From Lentimicrobiaceae bacterium (lineage in GTDB: Bacteria; Bacteroidota; Bacteroidia; Bacteroidales; F082): a stretch of DNA of 60,101 bases. Positions 1 through 59,740 of this stretch are shown in pieces. The notes under the pieces were generated by a model, which saw only the letters and a program-made list of their open reading frames with translations, did no database searches and was not told the DNA's origin. A program made the translations under genes and the position numbers. The stretch spans positions 1-60,101 of the forward strand of contig JABJIE010000088.1 in NCBI GenBank assembly GCA_018661505.1. The letters are read 5' to 3'. Numbering within the stretch: position 1 is the stretch's first letter; each line of letters begins with the position of its first letter.

Positions 1-1403
1 ATATCGATTGTTCCATCAATATCATTTGATTGCAATACCATTTTTCCTGTTACAGAATAAATATGAAGGCTTTCTAAATCAGTATGGTTCTTAATATTTA
101 ATACACTTGAAGCTGGGTTAGGATAAACTTCCATAACCTGATATTCATTGTCATTAAGGCCTGAAGCATCTGCTCTAACAAGAATAAAACGCCAGTAACC
201 AGGATCTGCGATCGCAATATCAAGGGTCATTGTATCTTGAGTATCGTTCCATGTTACCATGTAAGTAATTGATTCTGGTGCAGTAGTACCTTCTGCTGAT
301 AGCTCACCTCCATTGAATACTTTTGCAAGACCCATGTAAGCACCTACACCATGTAAGGTAAGTGAGCCAGAGTTCGCATTACTAGCTTCATATGACCAAG
401 TAGCGGCAATTGACCCATTATGAGGTGCAACTGGTGTACCACATCCTTCAGGATCCATACCTTGCCATGGCTCTATCCATGTTTCAAATCCATGATCTTC
501 ATCTTCAAGGATATTTTCGAATGCTCCATCTTCAGCAAAATAATATATATCATCAAAATAACATCCTCTTGTAATAACATCATCAGCACTATTTGACCAC
601 CAAGAGATATCGCCCATACCTGGACCAACGCCAAGGGCACCTGCCATTGGAGCCATTTCCCACATACCGTCAAGAGCTACATTCATTTGATTTTGACCCC
701 AGTAATCATTAAGATCTAATGCAACTGAATCAACTGTAACTGTGCGGTTATCCATACCGCTCCACTCACCATGATCCCAACTTGGTTCACTGTCTATTAC
801 TCGGAAGAATTTGTATTCAACATTTCCAGGATAAACAAGAAGTGTAAGTGAATAGTTAACATCATCATTTGTCGAAAGCATAAATGCACTAACTGTGCCA
901 GGTTGTGCCCACATATTAGCCATTGTACCTGCAACATATACAGCATCTGTTGCTGGATTAAATTCAGTTGCAGTGCTCATATTTACATTAAATGTAACTG
1001 ACATTGGCTTATTGGCCCAAACATTTTCATAAGTAGCATCACCAGTTGGATATACTGTACGATTAGGATCACCTCCCCATTCGCCATGATCCCAATTTGG
1101 CACTCCTTCACTTACAATAAAATATTTATACATTACCATATCAACAACCTCTACAGCTAGAGTTAAGCTGTAAACGGTTCCTCCTTCTTCTATTGGGGTC
1201 AACATAAGTGCCTCATTTGTGCCTGGTTGATCCCATCCTGTTGGCCCTGAGATATAAACAGCATCAGTTGTAGAATTAAAAGATGGTACGCCAGCCATTT
1301 CTACCTGAAAGGTTAAGTTAAAAGTGGGAGATTGGGCCATTAGAATATTCCCCATCATGAAGAATGCAGCTAAGACCAAAAATTTAAAAGTAAATTTTTT
1401 CAT
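1..1403 (-). CDS. T9SS-secreted protein with two starch-binding-like repeats (3' end outside window)
   Basis: The reading frame opens at ATG 1403 and runs off the left edge, so about 467 codons are visible and the C-terminus is missing. It begins with a signal peptide (about residues 1-23, ending NILMAQ). Two homologous repeats of about 100 residues follow (roughly 25-125 and 130-235). Each has the pattern DAVY(I/V)(S/A)G, then W..PGT, then YK(Y/F)F, WDHGEW and NRTV, which resembles the beta-sandwich starch-binding modules (CBM20/CBM48-like) of Bacteroidota alpha-glucan proteins. A third domain (about 237-395), rich in Trp and Gly (GALGVGPG, DISWW, GCGTPVAPH), resembles a module of secreted polysaccharide-utilisation proteins. 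A T9SS sorting domain with VYPNPASS starts near residue 424. It is probably a cell-surface or secreted alpha-glucan-binding protein. The adjacent LacI gene and the operator-like site at 1571 support this. Ligand specificity is inferred. Confidence 0.8.
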   Translation of the reverse strand, partial: MKKFTFKFLVLAAFFMMGNILMAQSPTFNLTFQVEMAGVPSFNSTTDAVYISGPTGWDQPGTNEALMLTPIEEGGTVYSLTLAVEVVDMVMYKYFIVSEGVPNWDHGEWGGDPNRTVYPTGDATYENVWANKPMSVTFNVNMSTATEFNPATDAVYVAGTMANMWAQPGTVSAFMLSTNDDVNYSLTLLVYPGNVEYKFFRVIDSEPSWDHGEWSGMDNRTVTVDSVALDLNDYWGQNQMNVALDGMWEMAPMAGALGVGPGMGDISWWSNSADDVITRGCYFDDIYYFAEDGAFENILEDEDHGFETWIEPWQGMDPEGCGTPVAPHNGSIAATWSYEASNANSGSLTLHGVGAYMGLAKVFNGGELSAEGTTAPESITYMVTWNDTQDTMTLDIAIADPGYWRFILVRADASGLNDNEYQVMEVYPNPASSVLNIKNHTDLESLHIYSVTGKMVLQSNDIDGTID

Positions 1404-1468: not shown

Positions 1469-1476
1469 CAAAGATA
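1469..1476 (-). promoter_or_regulatory. -7 promoter box of the starch-binding-like gene
   Basis: Read on the minus strand this is TATCTTTG, an exact match to the Bacteroidota -7 consensus TAnnTTTG. It lies 65 bases before the start codon at 1403. No TTG (-33 element) is found at the usual 19-nt spacing, which fits a promoter that needs an activator. Confidence 0.65.
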
Positions 1477-1570
1477 GCTAATTAAGTATTAAAAAGCCAT
1501 TAAAGTTTTTAGTTTTTAGGATATTAAACCTGTAAGGGGTGTAATAATAGAAAATTTTTGTAACATGCAA

Positions 1571-1586
1571 TTGCAATCGTTTGCAA
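1571..1586. promoter_or_regulatory. LacI-family operator-like palindrome (site A)
   Basis: TTGCAAT-CG-TTTGCAA is a nearly perfect palindrome around a central CG, the typical form of LacI-family operators. On the minus strand it contains TGCAAACGATT, a core found again at 24591 and 58311. The centre lies 102.5 bp upstream of the -7 box of the starch-binding-like gene and just beyond the 3' end of the lacI-type gene. Confidence 0.65.
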
Positions 1587-1590
1587 TGAA

Positions 1591-2598
1591 TTAACTGGAC
1601 CCTCTAACAATAAGCTTTGTTTTTATAACATGTTTCACGGGTTCGTAATTAACCGTATCATCTTTCATTCTCTCCAACAAAATAGATGCAGCTTTTTTAC
1701 CAAGGGTATATCCAAACTGATCAACAGAGCTAAGCTCGGGCTCAGTTAAAACAGAATTTCGACTATTTTCAAACCCTACAATCTTAAGTTCTTCTGGAAC
1801 ACTAAGTCCAAGTTTTTTTGCAACTTTCATAACACCCAAAGCAGTCAGGTCATTAACCGCAAAAACACCATCAGGCTTGTCCACTTTTTTTAATACACTA
1901 TTTGATATTTTAATTGCTGACTCATAGGAATCACATGAGTATACTAAATTCTTGTCGTATATAATACCATATTTTTCAAGAGCATCAATGTAACCTTGTA
2001 ATCTATCTTTACCCAATATTAAGTGTTGAGGTGCCGAGTAAAATGCTACTCTTCTACAACCTTTGCTTAGCAGATGATTAACAGCATCGTATGCCCCAGT
2101 ATAATCATCAACAACAACCATATCAGCTTTTAAATTAGTTATTGCACGATCATAAAATACTATGGGAATTTCATTGTCAATAATTTGCTGGAAATGAGAA
2201 AAATCTTTAGTTTCTTTGGAAAATGAAACCAACATTCCATCAACTCTATTGCTAAGCAATGTTTGAGAGTTAAGCACCTCTCTCATGTAAGACTCATTTG
2301 ATTGAACCACTAAAACATTGTAATTGTGCTCGTAAGCAACATCTTCTATTCCGCTAATAATTTTTGAAAAGAAGTGATGTTCAATTTCTGGTACAATTAA
2401 CCCTATCGTATTTGTACGACTATTTTTTAAGTTTAAAGCTATCAAATTTGGCTTATATCCTAGAAGCTTTGCAAGTTCTTTTACAGCATTTCTTGTTTTT
2501 TCACTGATATCTGGATGATCTTTTAGTGATCGTGAAACAGTAGATGGCGATATTCCAAGTTTTTCTGCAATGTCCTTAATTGTAACTTGACGCTTCAT
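1591..2598 (-). CDS. LacI-family transcriptional regulator
   Basis: A regulator of 335 residues from ATG 2598, where the canonical start MKRQVTIKDIAEKLG begins. An in-frame ATG ten codons upstream would add an atypical leader and was not chosen. The N-terminal helix-turn-helix (about 4-50) has the family pattern IKDIAEKLGIS.STVSR. A hinge helix follows (about 50-60), then a periplasmic-binding-protein-like sugar sensor domain (TNTIGLIVPEIEHHFFS, GIEDVAYEH, DGVFAVNDLTALGVM, VGFEN). It lies downstream of, and on the same strand as, no other gene of the glucan set, but sits against operator-like site A. By context it probably senses a sugar from alpha-glucan breakdown and controls the genes carrying the TGCAAACGATT core. 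The effector is unknown. A weak -7-like TAATTTG lies about 30 bases upstream. Confidence 0.88.
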   Translation of the reverse strand: MKRQVTIKDIAEKLGISPSTVSRSLKDHPDISEKTRNAVKELAKLLGYKPNLIALNLKNSRTNTIGLIVPEIEHHFFSKIISGIEDVAYEHNYNVLVVQSNESYMREVLNSQTLLSNRVDGMLVSFSKETKDFSHFQQIIDNEIPIVFYDRAITNLKADMVVVDDYTGAYDAVNHLLSKGCRRVAFYSAPQHLILGKDRLQGYIDALEKYGIIYDKNLVYSCDSYESAIKISNSVLKKVDKPDGVFAVNDLTALGVMKVAKKLGLSVPEELKIVGFENSRNSVLTEPELSSVDQFGYTLGKKAASILLERMKDDTVNYEPVKHVIKTKLIVRGSS

Positions 2599-2779
2599 AG
2601 TATAATTGTAATCTGAAAATTTCTGCAAATTACTTCTTTTTTTTTGAAGTTTGCGATGAAGTCCCTTTATTGGGGTTCCAAAAATCTGGAATAAAATCTT
2701 ACAAGGTAATACTTTAAGATAATTTAATATTTTTCTAAACTAACTGATGTTATAGTGCCTTCGTATCAATTTTTTACAC

Positions 2780-21596: not shown

Positions 21597-24449
21597 CTAT
21601 TTAATTTTACCAATTTGAATTAATTCTACCTCTTGCCCGTCCCATTTAAAATTAATATTCCATATTCCTTTTTTTGCGTCATATGAGTATCCTGGATTGC
21701 CGGTCGTATGATTTTTAATTTGTATTAATTTTTCTTCATTTAAATAAAGCTCATCAATATCTAAGGCATCTAAACCAATGATTTCAATGCTTACATTTCT
21801 AATGTCTGGTTGCTCTTCGTAGCCTTTACCATCGGACTTTATTATATATTTATATTTCTTTTCGGAAATAAATTCTCTTTCCAATATAATATATATAAAA
21901 TTATTATTTTCTATTGTACCATACGTTTTCCCATCATCCTCAAACATGGTGTAACTATTTGTTTTATCGGAGTGGTCAAAATAGTATTTGATTAGCAAGT
22001 CCGTTTTTGAATAATTATCAGTGGTATTTACATAGTTAGTGTATGGAATAAAGGCTCCTGCTTTAATAAAAATTGGGATTGTTTCCAAGTCTATTTTTTG
22101 TGTTATGCTCTTACCACCAGAGTAAATATGATTATCCCATAAACTATACCAATCAGATTCTTTGGGTAAATATATCTCTGCATATTTTTGTTCTTTTTCA
22201 ACAATAGGAAAAACTAAAATATCCTCACCAAACATATATTCATTTCCAATATCATATGTATTCGTATCTTTTGGAAACTCAAAAAATAATGGTCTAACAA
22301 TTGGATAGCCCTTAATTGTTGCTTCTGCTGCCAGATTATAAATGTATGGAAGCAGTTGATATCTAAGTTGCATAAACTTTCTAACAATTTGCTTTGTAGT
22401 ATCATTAAAATAAACTGGTTCAGAAGGAATATCTGAACCATGGGGTCTCAATATTGGTGAAAAACATGACATTTGAAGCCATCTGGTATAAAGTTCATTA
22501 TCCATAGTTCCCTGAGCAAATCCACCTGCATCTGAATGGATAAATGGTAGTCCGCATAGGCCCATGTGTATCATTAAAGGAACTTGTGCTTGCAGGCCAC
22601 CCCAACTCCTGCTTACGTCTCCTGTCCATGGGTAAATGGAGTAGCGTTGAGATCCAGCAAATCCAGCTCTGTTGAGATTGAAAAGCCTCATCTTTGGATA
22701 ATCTTCTCTCATATTTTCAAATAGAGCTTTATGCCAATAGTGACCATAAATATTATGCACTTCGTCAGCACTTCCATTAATATGAATCTGGTCCGAAGGA
22801 TGATTTTCTGGTTCACCCAAATCACCCCACCATCCAGCAACACCAATCTCAATTTGGGGTTTATATTTATCCCATAACCAAAGTCTAGCCTCGGGTTTAA
22901 AAATATCTATAAGAGCACCATCTCCAAAATAAAATTCTGAATTCACATAACTATTTCCTAGAGAATCCAATGCAAGTAAGCCCAAACTATCAGTAATATG
23001 GAAATTTTCAATAGAGTCTAGTATGTAGGGTTCTGTTATAAGAACAACTTTAATACCTTTCTTGCTTAAATCTGATATCATCTTTTCTGGGTTAGGCCAA
23101 TTGGGTTTATACCAGTCAAGCCTTCCCATTGTTCCTAAAAGACTATCTCCAAACCAATATAGGTCAATTATCATTGCATCCAGAGGAAAATCCTGTTCGA
23201 TGGTGAAATTTGCTATTGAGTCTGTTTCTTCTTGTGTTCTATATCCCATCCTGGATTGCAGGTTACCAAGAACCCATATCGGTGGCAATGGCTGGAAACC
23301 CGTTAGTACTGCATAATTAGTTGCGATCATTTTATGATTACTTCCACCTATTACGACATACTTCATAGTTCCACCAATGGCCCCAAATTCAAGAATACCA
23401 GATTCTGCTTCTCCTACATCAGCATATCCTTTTTGAGGGTTATCAAATAATAACAGATATTTTTTTGATGATACAATTAGAGGAACTGAGTAATTTAAAT
23501 TTTTTGCTCCAATCTCATACCCATATTTGGGTCTATTGTACAGCTTGTATCTCCCTCCAATTAGGTCCGGAGAAACGGCTCTTTCACCCAATCCAAATAT
23601 TTTTTCATTGGCATCAATTTCAAATCGTATTCCATCTGTGTCGCTCCTTCTAAAATATCCTTTTTCCTCCTTGATGATAGTATCATTATCGTATAAGAAT
23701 GATATAAAAAAAGGATTTTTGTTTACTATAACTGATAAACTATCGGTTAATAATTTCAGATAATTAGTTTCATCTATAATACTATTAAAAGTGCCCTCTG
23801 GTTTTAAAATAACGGCATCTGATTTCTCTTCTTTTGGAGCATTTTGTGGGTAATGCCTTATCTCTATAATATTACTTTCATAAGGGACTATTTGTGTGGT
23901 ACCATGGTCGGTAATTACTTCAACAATACTGTCATAGTCAAAATGAGTAATATATCTTCTTGCATTGTAGTCATAAATTTTCTCAGTTTTAGCAGGAGGA
24001 TAATAGCCGTTTACTGGTAGGAAAAAATCTTCGTTATTTGATGTTTTACCGACCATTGAACCATTTGCGCTTCTAAAAACAAAGGCAAGCTGCTGTATGT
24101 CCTCATCTTCACGGAGATTATAAAAAGAACTTATTGAAAACTTATACTGGTATAAGCCATTTCCAATATTAGTCATCCTGGTTTGTTCATCATCTTTACC
24201 CCAATTGCCAATAATGTGCTTCCAGTCACCACCATCTATACTTTTTTTGGTTATGGCACCCGTATGAAAGTGAATTTCACCATCATAACCTGATAAACCA
24301 CCATTACCCAAATTTGAATTATATGTTAAGGTAACAGTATCATCTATGGGAGGATTTTCAGGTGTTAACCAGGCCACCTGGGAGAAACTTGCTTGCGTAA
24401 TTGCAAAAACAAAAATCATTAGATGAATATAAAACTGCATTTTATGCAT
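21597..24449 (-). CDS. Exported GH31 alpha-glucosidase
   Basis: A 950-residue GH31 enzyme releasing glucose, or transferring glucosyl units, from alpha-glucan ends. Signal peptide about 1-23 (ending TQASFSQ). The N-terminal ~130 residues form an extra carbohydrate-binding-like beta domain (PPIDDTVTLTYNS..., DEQTRMTNIGNGLYQYKFSI). The GH31 N-domain and barrel follow, with nucleophile Asp in GWWGDLGEP, acid/base Asp in YPWTGDVSRSWGG, and substrate residues VWVLGNLQSRMGY. C-terminal beta domains end without a YPNP sorting motif, so periplasmic residence is likely. The start could also be the ATG three codons on. First gene of the operon with GH13; promoter TATTTTTG at 24487-24494 (minus). Confidence 0.92.
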   Translation of the reverse strand: MHKMQFYIHLMIFVFAITQASFSQVAWLTPENPPIDDTVTLTYNSNLGNGGLSGYDGEIHFHTGAITKKSIDGGDWKHIIGNWGKDDEQTRMTNIGNGLYQYKFSISSFYNLREDEDIQQLAFVFRSANGSMVGKTSNNEDFFLPVNGYYPPAKTEKIYDYNARRYITHFDYDSIVEVITDHGTTQIVPYESNIIEIRHYPQNAPKEEKSDAVILKPEGTFNSIIDETNYLKLLTDSLSVIVNKNPFFISFLYDNDTIIKEEKGYFRRSDTDGIRFEIDANEKIFGLGERAVSPDLIGGRYKLYNRPKYGYEIGAKNLNYSVPLIVSSKKYLLLFDNPQKGYADVGEAESGILEFGAIGGTMKYVVIGGSNHKMIATNYAVLTGFQPLPPIWVLGNLQSRMGYRTQEETDSIANFTIEQDFPLDAMIIDLYWFGDSLLGTMGRLDWYKPNWPNPEKMISDLSKKGIKVVLITEPYILDSIENFHITDSLGLLALDSLGNSYVNSEFYFGDGALIDIFKPEARLWLWDKYKPQIEIGVAGWWGDLGEPENHPSDQIHINGSADEVHNIYGHYWHKALFENMREDYPKMRLFNLNRAGFAGSQRYSIYPWTGDVSRSWGGLQAQVPLMIHMGLCGLPFIHSDAGGFAQGTMDNELYTRWLQMSCFSPILRPHGSDIPSEPVYFNDTTKQIVRKFMQLRYQLLPYIYNLAAEATIKGYPIVRPLFFEFPKDTNTYDIGNEYMFGEDILVFPIVEKEQKYAEIYLPKESDWYSLWDNHIYSGGKSITQKIDLETIPIFIKAGAFIPYTNYVNTTDNYSKTDLLIKYYFDHSDKTNSYTMFEDDGKTYGTIENNNFIYIILEREFISEKKYKYIIKSDGKGYEEQPDIRNVSIEIIGLDALDIDELYLNEEKLIQIKNHTTGNPGYSYDAKKGIWNINFKWDGQEVELIQIGKIK

Positions 24450-24486: not shown

Positions 24487-24699
24487 CAAAAATATAATAA
24501 AAAAGCCGGTTGATTAAATTAATGACCTAAATTAAACCTTGTTACTATTAGATTTTATATACTACCACATTTTTATTTTAAAGTATCCTATGCAAACGAT
24601 TGATATAAACATACTGATAACTTAAATTATGAGTATTGTTGGATTGAAACCATTATTGGGCTATTGGCGTAATAATCAACATTTATTCAACTAATTTTG
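24487..24699. promoter_or_regulatory. Divergent glucan promoter region with operator-like site B
   Basis: The minus-strand -7 box TATTTTTG (24487-24494) faces the GH31 gene. The plus-strand box TAATTTTG (24692-24699) faces the trehalose-synthase-like gene. Between them, TGCAAACGATTG at 24591-24602 repeats the core of site A. Its central CG is 103.5 bp from the GH31 box and 94.5 bp from the other box. This explains most of the 276-base gap. Confidence 0.6.
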
Positions 24700-24725: not shown

Positions 24726-26423
24726 ATGACAACAAAACTTAAACTCTATAATTACTGGAATCAACTTTATCCGGATCTACCCGCTGATAAACTGGATGTT
24801 TTTATTTCTAATATTAATGTCTCGGACAAAAAGGAAGTCTCAAAAGACTGGTTTAAAGATGCCATTGTCTACTCCTTGTATGTAAATCTTTACAATGAAG
24901 ATTTTTATGGATTAACGGAAAAGCTTGATTATATAAAGAACCTTGGAATTAATTGTTTGTGGCTATTACCAATACTTCAATCACCAATGCGTGATGCAGG
25001 TTTTGATATTAGTAAATATGACAGAATTAGACCTTCGCTACTTGGATTGTCTGATGAAAGTACTCGTGGTGATCAAGAAGTTGTATTTGGTTCATTTCTT
25101 GAGGAGGCACACAAAAGAGGAATCAGAGTTATATTTGATGTTGCAATCAATCATACTTCCGATGAGCATCCATGGTTTATTGATTCCCAAAAGAACGATG
25201 TAAATGAGTATACGGATTTTTATATTTGGAGTGATAAACCAGATAAATATTTGGATGCACGCTTATTGTTTAAGGGTATAGAAGACTCAAACTGGGAAAA
25301 GTTAGAAGATAAATACTATTTCCATAGATTTTTTAGTTTCCAGCCAGATCTTAATTACAGAAATCCAGATGTCTTGTTGGCAATGACAAAAAATTTACTC
25401 TATTGGCAAGAAAATGGTGTTGATGGATTCAGGGCTGATGCAATACCTTACTTGTGGAAAGAGGATGGTACAGATTGTGAAAACTTGGAAATGACACATA
25501 TAATTGTCAAGTTTTTTAGAGCTGCTCTCGAATATGTAAACCCAGAAACATTACTATTGGCTGAGGCTTGTCAAAAACCAAAAGAGGTTGTGAAATACTT
25601 AGGCAACAATGATGAGTGCCATGCAGCATATCACTTCCCGCTTATGCCAATGATATATAAATCCATAGCAAGCGCTAATTCTGAACCCATAAAACATACT
25701 TTAAGTAATGCTTTTACTCCAGAAATAAGCGATAGTAATCAATGGTTTACATTTCTTAGAGTTCATGATGAGCTTAGCTTGGAATTGGTATATGTTAGTG
25801 AGGAGGATAGAAAATATATCTATGATAGTTATTGTCATGATCCTTCATGGGACTTTAGGGTTGGTGAAGGAATATCTGCAAGATTATCAGAGTTAATGCA
25901 AAAAGATGTAAATAAAATAGGTCTTGCTTATTCTATTATGCTAACTCTTCTTGGAACACCCGTTATCTATTATGGTGATGAGTTTGGTAAACTCAATGAC
26001 AAGAATTACTATAAGAACCAAATAAAACTTACAGGAAAGGATGATACAAGATTTCTTGTTCGTGGTAAAATTGACTGGATGAATCTAGAGCAAGACCTTA
26101 AGCAAGAAGATAATTTTCATTCACAGGTATTTGGCATGATAAGTAGTATGTTAAATACACGAAAAGACTTTACTTCATTTGGCAGAGGAGATCTTAATTT
26201 CATCGATGTTGTTACAGATAACCCCCATGAAATTCTATCATATGTTCGCAAATATTCGGACGAAAAAATATTAGTTTTAAATAATCTATCAGCTGAAAAA
26301 CAAGTGCTAAGAAATCCCTTACCGGATAATAACCTCGCTGTTTTAAATATGAATGGCTTTGTTATGGATAATGATCATATTATACTTGAACCTCATGGCT
26401 TTGTATGGATTCTTGTGATATAA
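24726..26423 (+). CDS. Trehalose-synthase-like GH13 enzyme (cytoplasmic)
   Basis: A 565-residue GH13 enzyme without a signal peptide. Catalytic regions: VIFDVAINHTSDEHPWF, DGFRADAIPYL (Asp nucleophile), LLAEACQ (Glu) and LRVHDELSLELV (Asp). The last motif and the following EEDRKYIY resemble the LRNHDELTLE...ERDYMY block of trehalose synthase (GH13_16), which interconverts maltose and trehalose. No maltokinase domain is fused. It is transcribed away from the GH31-GH13 operon through the shared control region, so it probably handles maltose or short dextrins once inside the cell. An intracellular alpha-amylase/alpha-glucosidase is the main alternative. Promoter TAATTTTG at 24692. Confidence 0.82.
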   Translation: MTTKLKLYNYWNQLYPDLPADKLDVFISNINVSDKKEVSKDWFKDAIVYSLYVNLYNEDFYGLTEKLDYIKNLGINCLWLLPILQSPMRDAGFDISKYDRIRPSLLGLSDESTRGDQEVVFGSFLEEAHKRGIRVIFDVAINHTSDEHPWFIDSQKNDVNEYTDFYIWSDKPDKYLDARLLFKGIEDSNWEKLEDKYYFHRFFSFQPDLNYRNPDVLLAMTKNLLYWQENGVDGFRADAIPYLWKEDGTDCENLEMTHIIVKFFRAALEYVNPETLLLAEACQKPKEVVKYLGNNDECHAAYHFPLMPMIYKSIASANSEPIKHTLSNAFTPEISDSNQWFTFLRVHDELSLELVYVSEEDRKYIYDSYCHDPSWDFRVGEGISARLSELMQKDVNKIGLAYSIMLTLLGTPVIYYGDEFGKLNDKNYYKNQIKLTGKDDTRFLVRGKIDWMNLEQDLKQEDNFHSQVFGMISSMLNTRKDFTSFGRGDLNFIDVVTDNPHEILSYVRKYSDEKILVLNNLSAEKQVLRNPLPDNNLAVLNMNGFVMDNDHIILEPHGFVWILVI

Positions 26424-58292: not shown

Positions 58293-58310
58293 GTGACTTT
58301 AAATTTGTAG

Positions 58311-59740
<1,430 letters not shown>

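Follow-up and report, generated by a model that had tools for sequence, protein, structure and literature searches.

An intergenic palindrome beside a LacI-family gene raises the question of whether the encoded regulator could act on carbon-metabolism promoters from a distance, and whether it would activate or repress them. The window analysed here, a stretch of 60,101 nucleotides, is the whole of contig C20 in the assembly of a Lentimicrobiaceae bacterium (2.46 Mb in 100 contigs, 95.7% complete). The operator TTGCAATCGTTTGCAA (1571-1586, unstranded) is located between the end of a lacI-type ORF (1591-2628, minus strand), whose 3′ end is four bases away, and a same-strand gene for a secreted protein. 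Like its 14-base form, it is an even palindrome with a central CG, which is the form of LacI/GalR operators. Its 11-base core, TGCAAACGATT, is found exactly at 1575-1585 (minus strand), 24591-24601 and 58311-58321 (both plus strand), and the palindrome and these recurrences are as the original prediction had described them. That prediction held that a LacI-family protein acts on several promoters from a fixed distance of about 103 bp as an activator, and not as a blocking repressor.

The promoter mark employed is an exact TAnnTTTG box, the −7 consensus of Bacteroidetes. Recomputing the four predicted distances from operator centre to −7 box reproduces the values of 102.5, 103.5, 94.5, and 103.5 bp. 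The first belongs to the −7-type box TATCTTTG (1469-1476, minus strand) of the secreted-protein gene (3-1403, minus strand), a predicted target truncated by the contig end; it had been labelled starch-binding-like, whereas Pfam reveals only a Por_Secre_tail sorting domain. Relatives from the same genus also have a site beside lacI, separated by 96.5-104.5 bp from an exact box. A second operator, ATGCAAACGATTGATA (24590-24605, unstranded), is conserved in orthologues and separates two divergent predicted targets, encoding a GH31 alpha-glucosidase-like protein (21597-24449, minus strand) and a GH13 alpha-amylase/trehalose-synthase (TreS N-terminal)-like protein (24726-26423, plus strand), the latter scoring 451 bits against the TreS model, under its cut-off of 678. 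The operator centre is 103.5 bp from TATTTTTG, the −7 box belonging to the GH31 operon (24487-24494, minus strand), and 94.5 bp from the box TAATTTTG of the GH13 gene (24692-24699, plus strand), and these two values are not fully independent because one operator serves two divergent promoters. The remaining value comes from a weaker operator, GTGCAAACGATTTAAT (58310-58325, plus strand), upstream of the enolase gene eno (58448-59740, plus strand), also a predicted target. Its candidate −7 box, TACTTTCG (58421-58428, plus strand), lies 103.5 bp from the operator centre and is inexact, having three of the four letters of TTTG, and an exact TAAATTTG starts 17.5 bp upstream of that centre. Three values in one window, one of them measured to a non-exact box, are a small sample, a point for the chance explanation, in which common AT-rich words happen to be similarly spaced in a few promoters.

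A scan of the whole 2.46-Mb assembly for the core, which had been proposed as a check, finds five exact copies compared to one for the reversed control. Four of the five are intergenic and one is inside an ORF; three are in the window, one is on contig C8 (susC-like/amylase), and one is on contig C2 in the ORF divergent from gapA. The genome itself breaks the 103-bp rule, as the perfect C8 site is 220.5 and 329.5 bp away from exact boxes, and the amylase box on that contig has a weak site with three mismatches, CGCACACGATTGCG, at 96.5 bp. About eight candidate transcription units are present in this genome, several of them with weak sites. Matches to the 16-mer with up to three mismatches (55 versus 22 for the control) were treated as largely background because most are inside ORFs. 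On contig C28 (53011-53026; L057:3512-3527), a palindrome, TTGCATACGTTTGCAT, sits directly on a TACGTTTG box; the gene after it is lipoprotein-like and is followed by a susC-like gene, and the palindrome may be a repression-type site.

The motif is strongly enriched across the family: TGCAAWCGWTTGCA, allowing one mismatch, occurs at 463 places in 60 genomes, compared to 35 for the reversed pattern, which argues against chance. Among 132 unique sites in the collected loci, 92 are intergenic and 40 are inside ORFs, and at least 18 of the latter are a recurrent gapA site, judged by ORF length and position. For the family sites lacking a locus, 60 of the 65 among the matches listed were added, as were 20 of 22 for the genus, where the two left out have no CG centre. 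In 135 site-gene pairs, exact boxes face outward, towards the gene, in 99 cases and inward in 11. The first cluster-level tests on this mixed set were not significant, a point in favour of chance; agreement to 1 bp between non-homologous targets gave p = 0.10-0.22, and a Rayleigh test at periods of 10-11.2 bp gave p = 0.99. Because the first test on the mixed set was negative, orthologues of individual targets were taken regardless of their sites. Outside the family, a genome from another family of the order (G049) carries two near-perfect palindromes 101 bp apart (L152:936-949 and 1037-1050) upstream of a susC-like gene, and the regulon may thus reach beyond the family.

For the permutation tests on orthologues, one pair was taken per locus, with the fewest mismatches and then the box nearest the start, the box being 12-75 bp from the ATG and 15-140 bp from the site. 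No pair came from loci truncated by a contig end or having a doubtful start, and L320 was counted as 76.5 bp under the one-pair rule though 61.5 bp is also present. In GH13 orthologues, a site with up to three mismatches is 94.5-97.5 bp from an exact box in 21 of 30 loci; three further loci have a four-mismatch site at 94.5 bp, and one locus pairs at 130.5 bp. In the 24 loci pre-selected at 90-100 bp, the variance of the operator-to-box distance is 0.61 bp², compared to 23.2 bp² for box-to-ATG. Without selection, the standard deviation is larger for operator-to-box (7.6) than for box-to-ATG (5.1), owing to the single outlier locus at 130.5 bp. In permutation tests free of that selection, agreement as close as that observed was reached in 0 of 5000 runs for GH13, and likewise for amylase (0/5000). 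The 85-bp GH13 spacers themselves are nearly unrelated, with a median identity of 0.31 versus 0.27 when shuffled. A divergent box within 150 bp was found for 17 of the 24 loci with a GH13 site, at 93.5-94.5 bp in five and 103.5-108.5 bp in nine, with 85.5, 120.5, and 125.5 bp once each; L297 entered the phase test described below at 108.5 rather than 144.5 bp. Amylase orthologues show 93.5-96.5 bp in 15 of 30 loci, 89.5-90.5 bp in three, and 106.5 bp in one, where three of the 15 values (L399-L401, from this genome and two others of the genus) use a three-mismatch site and a stronger site is 207.5-329.5 bp away. The susC-like genes, at distances from 61.5 to 512.5 bp, are not locked, and seven of their 21 pairs have no exact box.

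Locking extends to glycolytic genes, at other distances. PPDK orthologues fall into two classes, 16 of 30 loci at 61.5-63.5 bp and eight (genera g15 and g3) at 103.5-105.5 bp, and 13 of 20 additional loci are at 60.5-63.5 bp. The agreement is significant by permutation (p = 0.0006), and the spacers at 62.5 bp are less diverged (identity 0.43 versus 0.34 shuffled). The two classes differ by 42 bp, which corresponds to four turns of 10.5 bp. FBA gave a pair in 17 of 30 loci, ranging from 73.5 to 103.5 bp with no significant locking (permutation p = 0.13). Enolase was rejected as a strong case, since a site with an exact box is found in only three of 30 loci, in a set where the gene is unreadable in seven loci (one of which, L113, has 62.5 bp) and ten come from other families of the order. 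Six loci of a membrane H+-pyrophosphatase gene, one copy of which was checked by Pfam, carry the motif 31.5-38.5 bp upstream of the start codon, and no exact −7 box separates the two (L161, L199, L217, L223, L252, and L273); a site there would fit a link to PPDK-based glycolysis.

The gapA operator is located within the ORF divergent from gapA, 131 nt past its start (L003:1501-1516, corresponding to C2:38493-38508 of this genome, and orthologues L369-L398). An exact gapA box is 176.5-178.5 bp from the operator in 29 of 30 loci, the lone miss being L375, which has a mis-called ORF start, and the same box is 78-173 bp from the gapA start codon. This spacing may owe something to the overlap, as the distance from site to start is fixed by coding. 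This ORF forms the N-terminal portion of a ~1,380-residue protein, a later part of which matches PPDK at ~39%; the part carrying the operator has no match in Pfam or NCBIfam. The four operator codons are each represented by a single codon in 30 of 30 genomes, compared to only one of 36 other columns with an invariant residue, and this invariance also counts against chance. In genera g4, g6, g8, and g13, GCA-nnC-GAT-TGC is kept in all 15 readable loci, with Asn, Thr, or His as the second residue (L442 is not among the loci passing the peptide filter of this comparison). Some gapA sites in g6, g8, and g13 have ACC (L440, L443, L446, and L447) or CAC (L441 and L448) for AAC, exchanging Asn for Thr or His. 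PPDK sites in related genomes read like TTCAACCGATTGCA. This looks like a shift in operator preference, with an altered residue in the protein.

Taken together, the comparison of orthologous upstream regions, another check that had been proposed, shows operator-to-box spacing locked at GH13, amylase, PPDK, and gapA, which is the arrangement of a Class-I-type activator, an operator upstream of the core promoter at a conserved spacing. The claim that the spacing is hard to explain by chance is thereby supported by orthologues, while its single distance of ~103 bp is wrong, as positions near 62, 94.5, 104, and 177.5 bp are also conserved.

The motif is tied to the regulator by a natural loss. No LacI match was found in G020 and G033, the two genomes searched of the four in genus g14. 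In all four (G020, G033, G069, and G078), the surrounding protein is kept but the codons of the gapA operator have drifted, and no PPDK site within three mismatches is present; the genomes of this genus also have fewer motif matches (one-sided p = 0.005). The sites are lost in a genus where the regulator was not found in the two genomes searched. Some counter-examples exist: G033 still has seven motif matches, G011 has the regulator and no PPDK site, and G003, of the same genus as the window, has no close LacI relative (best identity 28-29%), yet a perfect gapA site, perhaps because its fragmented assembly of 520 contigs misses the gene. With the motif enrichment, spacing locked across diverged spacers, invariant operator codons, and site loss in g14, chance is already contradicted, and we give it next to no probability.

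The original prediction described the distance as about ten helical turns, which is compatible with the data, though the periodicity tests vary with grouping. When modes were merged within 3 bp and required in at least three loci, the best period was 10.4 bp, with R = 0.98, a value that none of 4000 jittered sets reached; other groupings gave p from 0.003 to 0.39. Over nine groupings of the orthologues, p ranged from 0.39 to below 0.001, with the best period at 10.4-10.5 bp in eight and 8.2 bp in one. Modes at 89-89.5 and 98.5 bp are out of phase. Helical phasing of the operators is probable, though it depends on how the modes are grouped.

A minority of sites occupy the core promoter. In 10 of the 135 pairs, the exact −7 box is just 15-30 bp (17.5-27.5) from the operator centre, so that the site covers the promoter. 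These sites belong to lacI itself (two of five lacI pairs), a POR-type oxidoreductase (three), an aminotransferase (two), an aromatic amino acid hydroxylase (one), an enoyl-CoA hydratase (one), and one protein outside the Pfam run. By analogy with CcpA (PMC3463425) and PckR (PMC4052901), a site upstream suggests activation, and one that overlaps the promoter suggests repression. An upstream-acting LacI-family activator is still the best reading of the positions, as had been proposed, and denying the protein any role as a blocking repressor was too strong in view of these ten pairs. A missing −33 TTG, taken as a mark of activator dependence, proved not distinctive; the counts are 17 of 114 operator-linked promoters versus 15 of 64 controls (p = 0.16), and narrower windows gave p = 0.65 and 0.41.

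The protein encoded beside the first operator is a LacI/GalR-family regulator of 345 amino acids (1591-2628, minus strand) with an N-terminal LacI HTH and a Peripla_BP sensor domain in Pfam; scores of 52.6 bits for PF00356 (cut-off 27), 105.9 for PF00532, and 104.9 for PF13377 place it in the family. It gives the one match at E ≤ 0.001 in its own genome and is thus the only LacI-family protein found there. Its closest named relative is from a Lentimicrobiaceae MAG (95% identity) and its closest solved sequences are those of CcpA, while it remains below the curated cut-offs of all 18 NCBIfam models matched, including CcpA, Cra, MalI, and TreR. Profile matches extend to residue 344 of 345, and this together with the length leaves no space for a tetramerisation tail of the LacI type, so the regulator is predicted to be a dimer.

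The protein's architecture bears on the possibility that its upstream sites serve repression, through a DNA loop or interference with another activator, until a sugar relieves it. Most LacI-family proteins are repressors, which speaks for this possibility together with the ten core-promoter pairs. An upstream cre of the lev operon is also reported to repress by blocking an activator (PMC3463425). Looping requires two operators, whereas most GH13 and PPDK loci show one site within three mismatches, an argument weakened by some amylase loci with two or three; it would also need the tetramerisation extension, which is seemingly absent. A looping tetramer is therefore disfavoured by protein length and by the mostly single sites. 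Locked spacings of 62, 94.5, and 104 bp suit a contact with polymerase and are unneeded for a roadblock. We consider repression from upstream unlikely.

The distances themselves raise a further point. Direct contact with RNA polymerase would be a long reach from 94-177 bp, which counts against our preferred explanation and could be accounted for by a second, unseen factor between operator and promoter that sets the spacing, the LacI protein being only an anchor. There is a parallel in ackA, for which a requirement for further upstream sequence besides the cre box is reported (PMC3463425). On inspection, the diverged GH13 and amylase spacers show no conserved block, and we hold this alternative to be improbable, slightly more so than repression from upstream.

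The explanation that we consider likely, with good though not full confidence, is a global LacI-family regulator, comparable to CcpA and Cra, which activates the promoters of starch and glycolytic genes from a small number of upstream positions and probably acts as a repressor where its site overlaps the promoter. Bound as a dimer ahead of the core promoter, it would help RNA polymerase at the starch genes, namely GH13, GH31, amylase, and perhaps a SusC-like transporter, and at the glycolytic genes for GAPDH, PPDK, enolase, and in part FBA. The positions used would be those that, in several orthologous promoters, keep their distance from the −7 box to within about 1 bp, at ~62, 94.5, 104, and 177.5 bp, with 73.5 bp in one group of FBA. 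An operator on the core promoter, as for lacI in some genera, the POR-type oxidoreductase, the aminotransferase, the aromatic amino acid hydroxylase, and enoyl-CoA hydratase, would lead to repression. The effector is probably a sugar or sugar phosphate. Activation is deduced from position, and we infer physical binding, the sign of regulation, polymerase contact, and the effector alike.

Comparable systems are known in other phyla. CcpA of the Firmicutes, a LacI/GalR-family protein and the closest solved relative by sequence, is a global dual regulator reported to activate from upstream of −35 and repress from overlapping sites, depending on the helix face (PMC3463425). The present regulator differs in phylum, in scoring 192 bits against the ccpA equivalog cut-off of 442, and in that starch and glycolytic genes are here predicted to be activated. 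In Proteobacteria, Cra/FruR, PckR, GapR, and GluR are global LacI-family regulators of central carbon metabolism, similarly placing one such protein over glycolytic genes, and GluR also over ppdK; for PckR, the sign of regulation was likewise predicted from site position (PMC4052901). Cra and PckR are described there as repressing glycolysis and activating gluconeogenesis, whereas the positions found here predict activated glycolysis and starch use, and the regulator reaches 125 bits against a cut-off of 385 for the Cra model. By the definition of the same source, a global LacI-family regulator has over 15 target genes, spread across seven or more operons and several pathways, and it places such regulators with position-dependent sign in Firmicutes and Proteobacteria (PMC4052901). 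In Bacteroides, starch genes are controlled by SusR, a membrane protein, and BT4338, of the Crp family, is a proposed multi-sugar regulator, both sharing the phylum with the present case; the four LacI proteins tabulated there, KdgR, UxaR, UxmR, and UxuR, are uronate regulators, none of them for starch or glycolysis (PMC3878776). A LacI-family uronate regulator is also described for Algoriphagus (PMC5507952). No report of a LacI regulator of starch plus glycolysis in Bacteroidetes was found among the papers listed from the open-licence literature, which is weak evidence of absence.

A broader picture can be proposed tentatively, with doubt somewhat outweighing belief. One LacI-family master activator would govern starch breakdown and glycolysis in Lentimicrobiaceae, with sites spaced by whole turns and reaching ~177 bp upstream of the −7 box. 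At the site within a divergent coding sequence, the operator rather than the protein would constrain the codons, Asn giving way to Thr or His in line with an apparent change of operator preference. On promoters that it covers, the same protein would repress the catabolism of amino acids and fatty acids, making it a sugar-versus-amino-acid switch. The case offers a lineage with natural loss and a coding stretch apparently held in place by a transcription-factor site. It also provides a testable rule, that fixed operator-to-promoter distances predict activation, and sequence-based prediction of gene expression would benefit in this phylum, where promoters are unlike those of E. coli.
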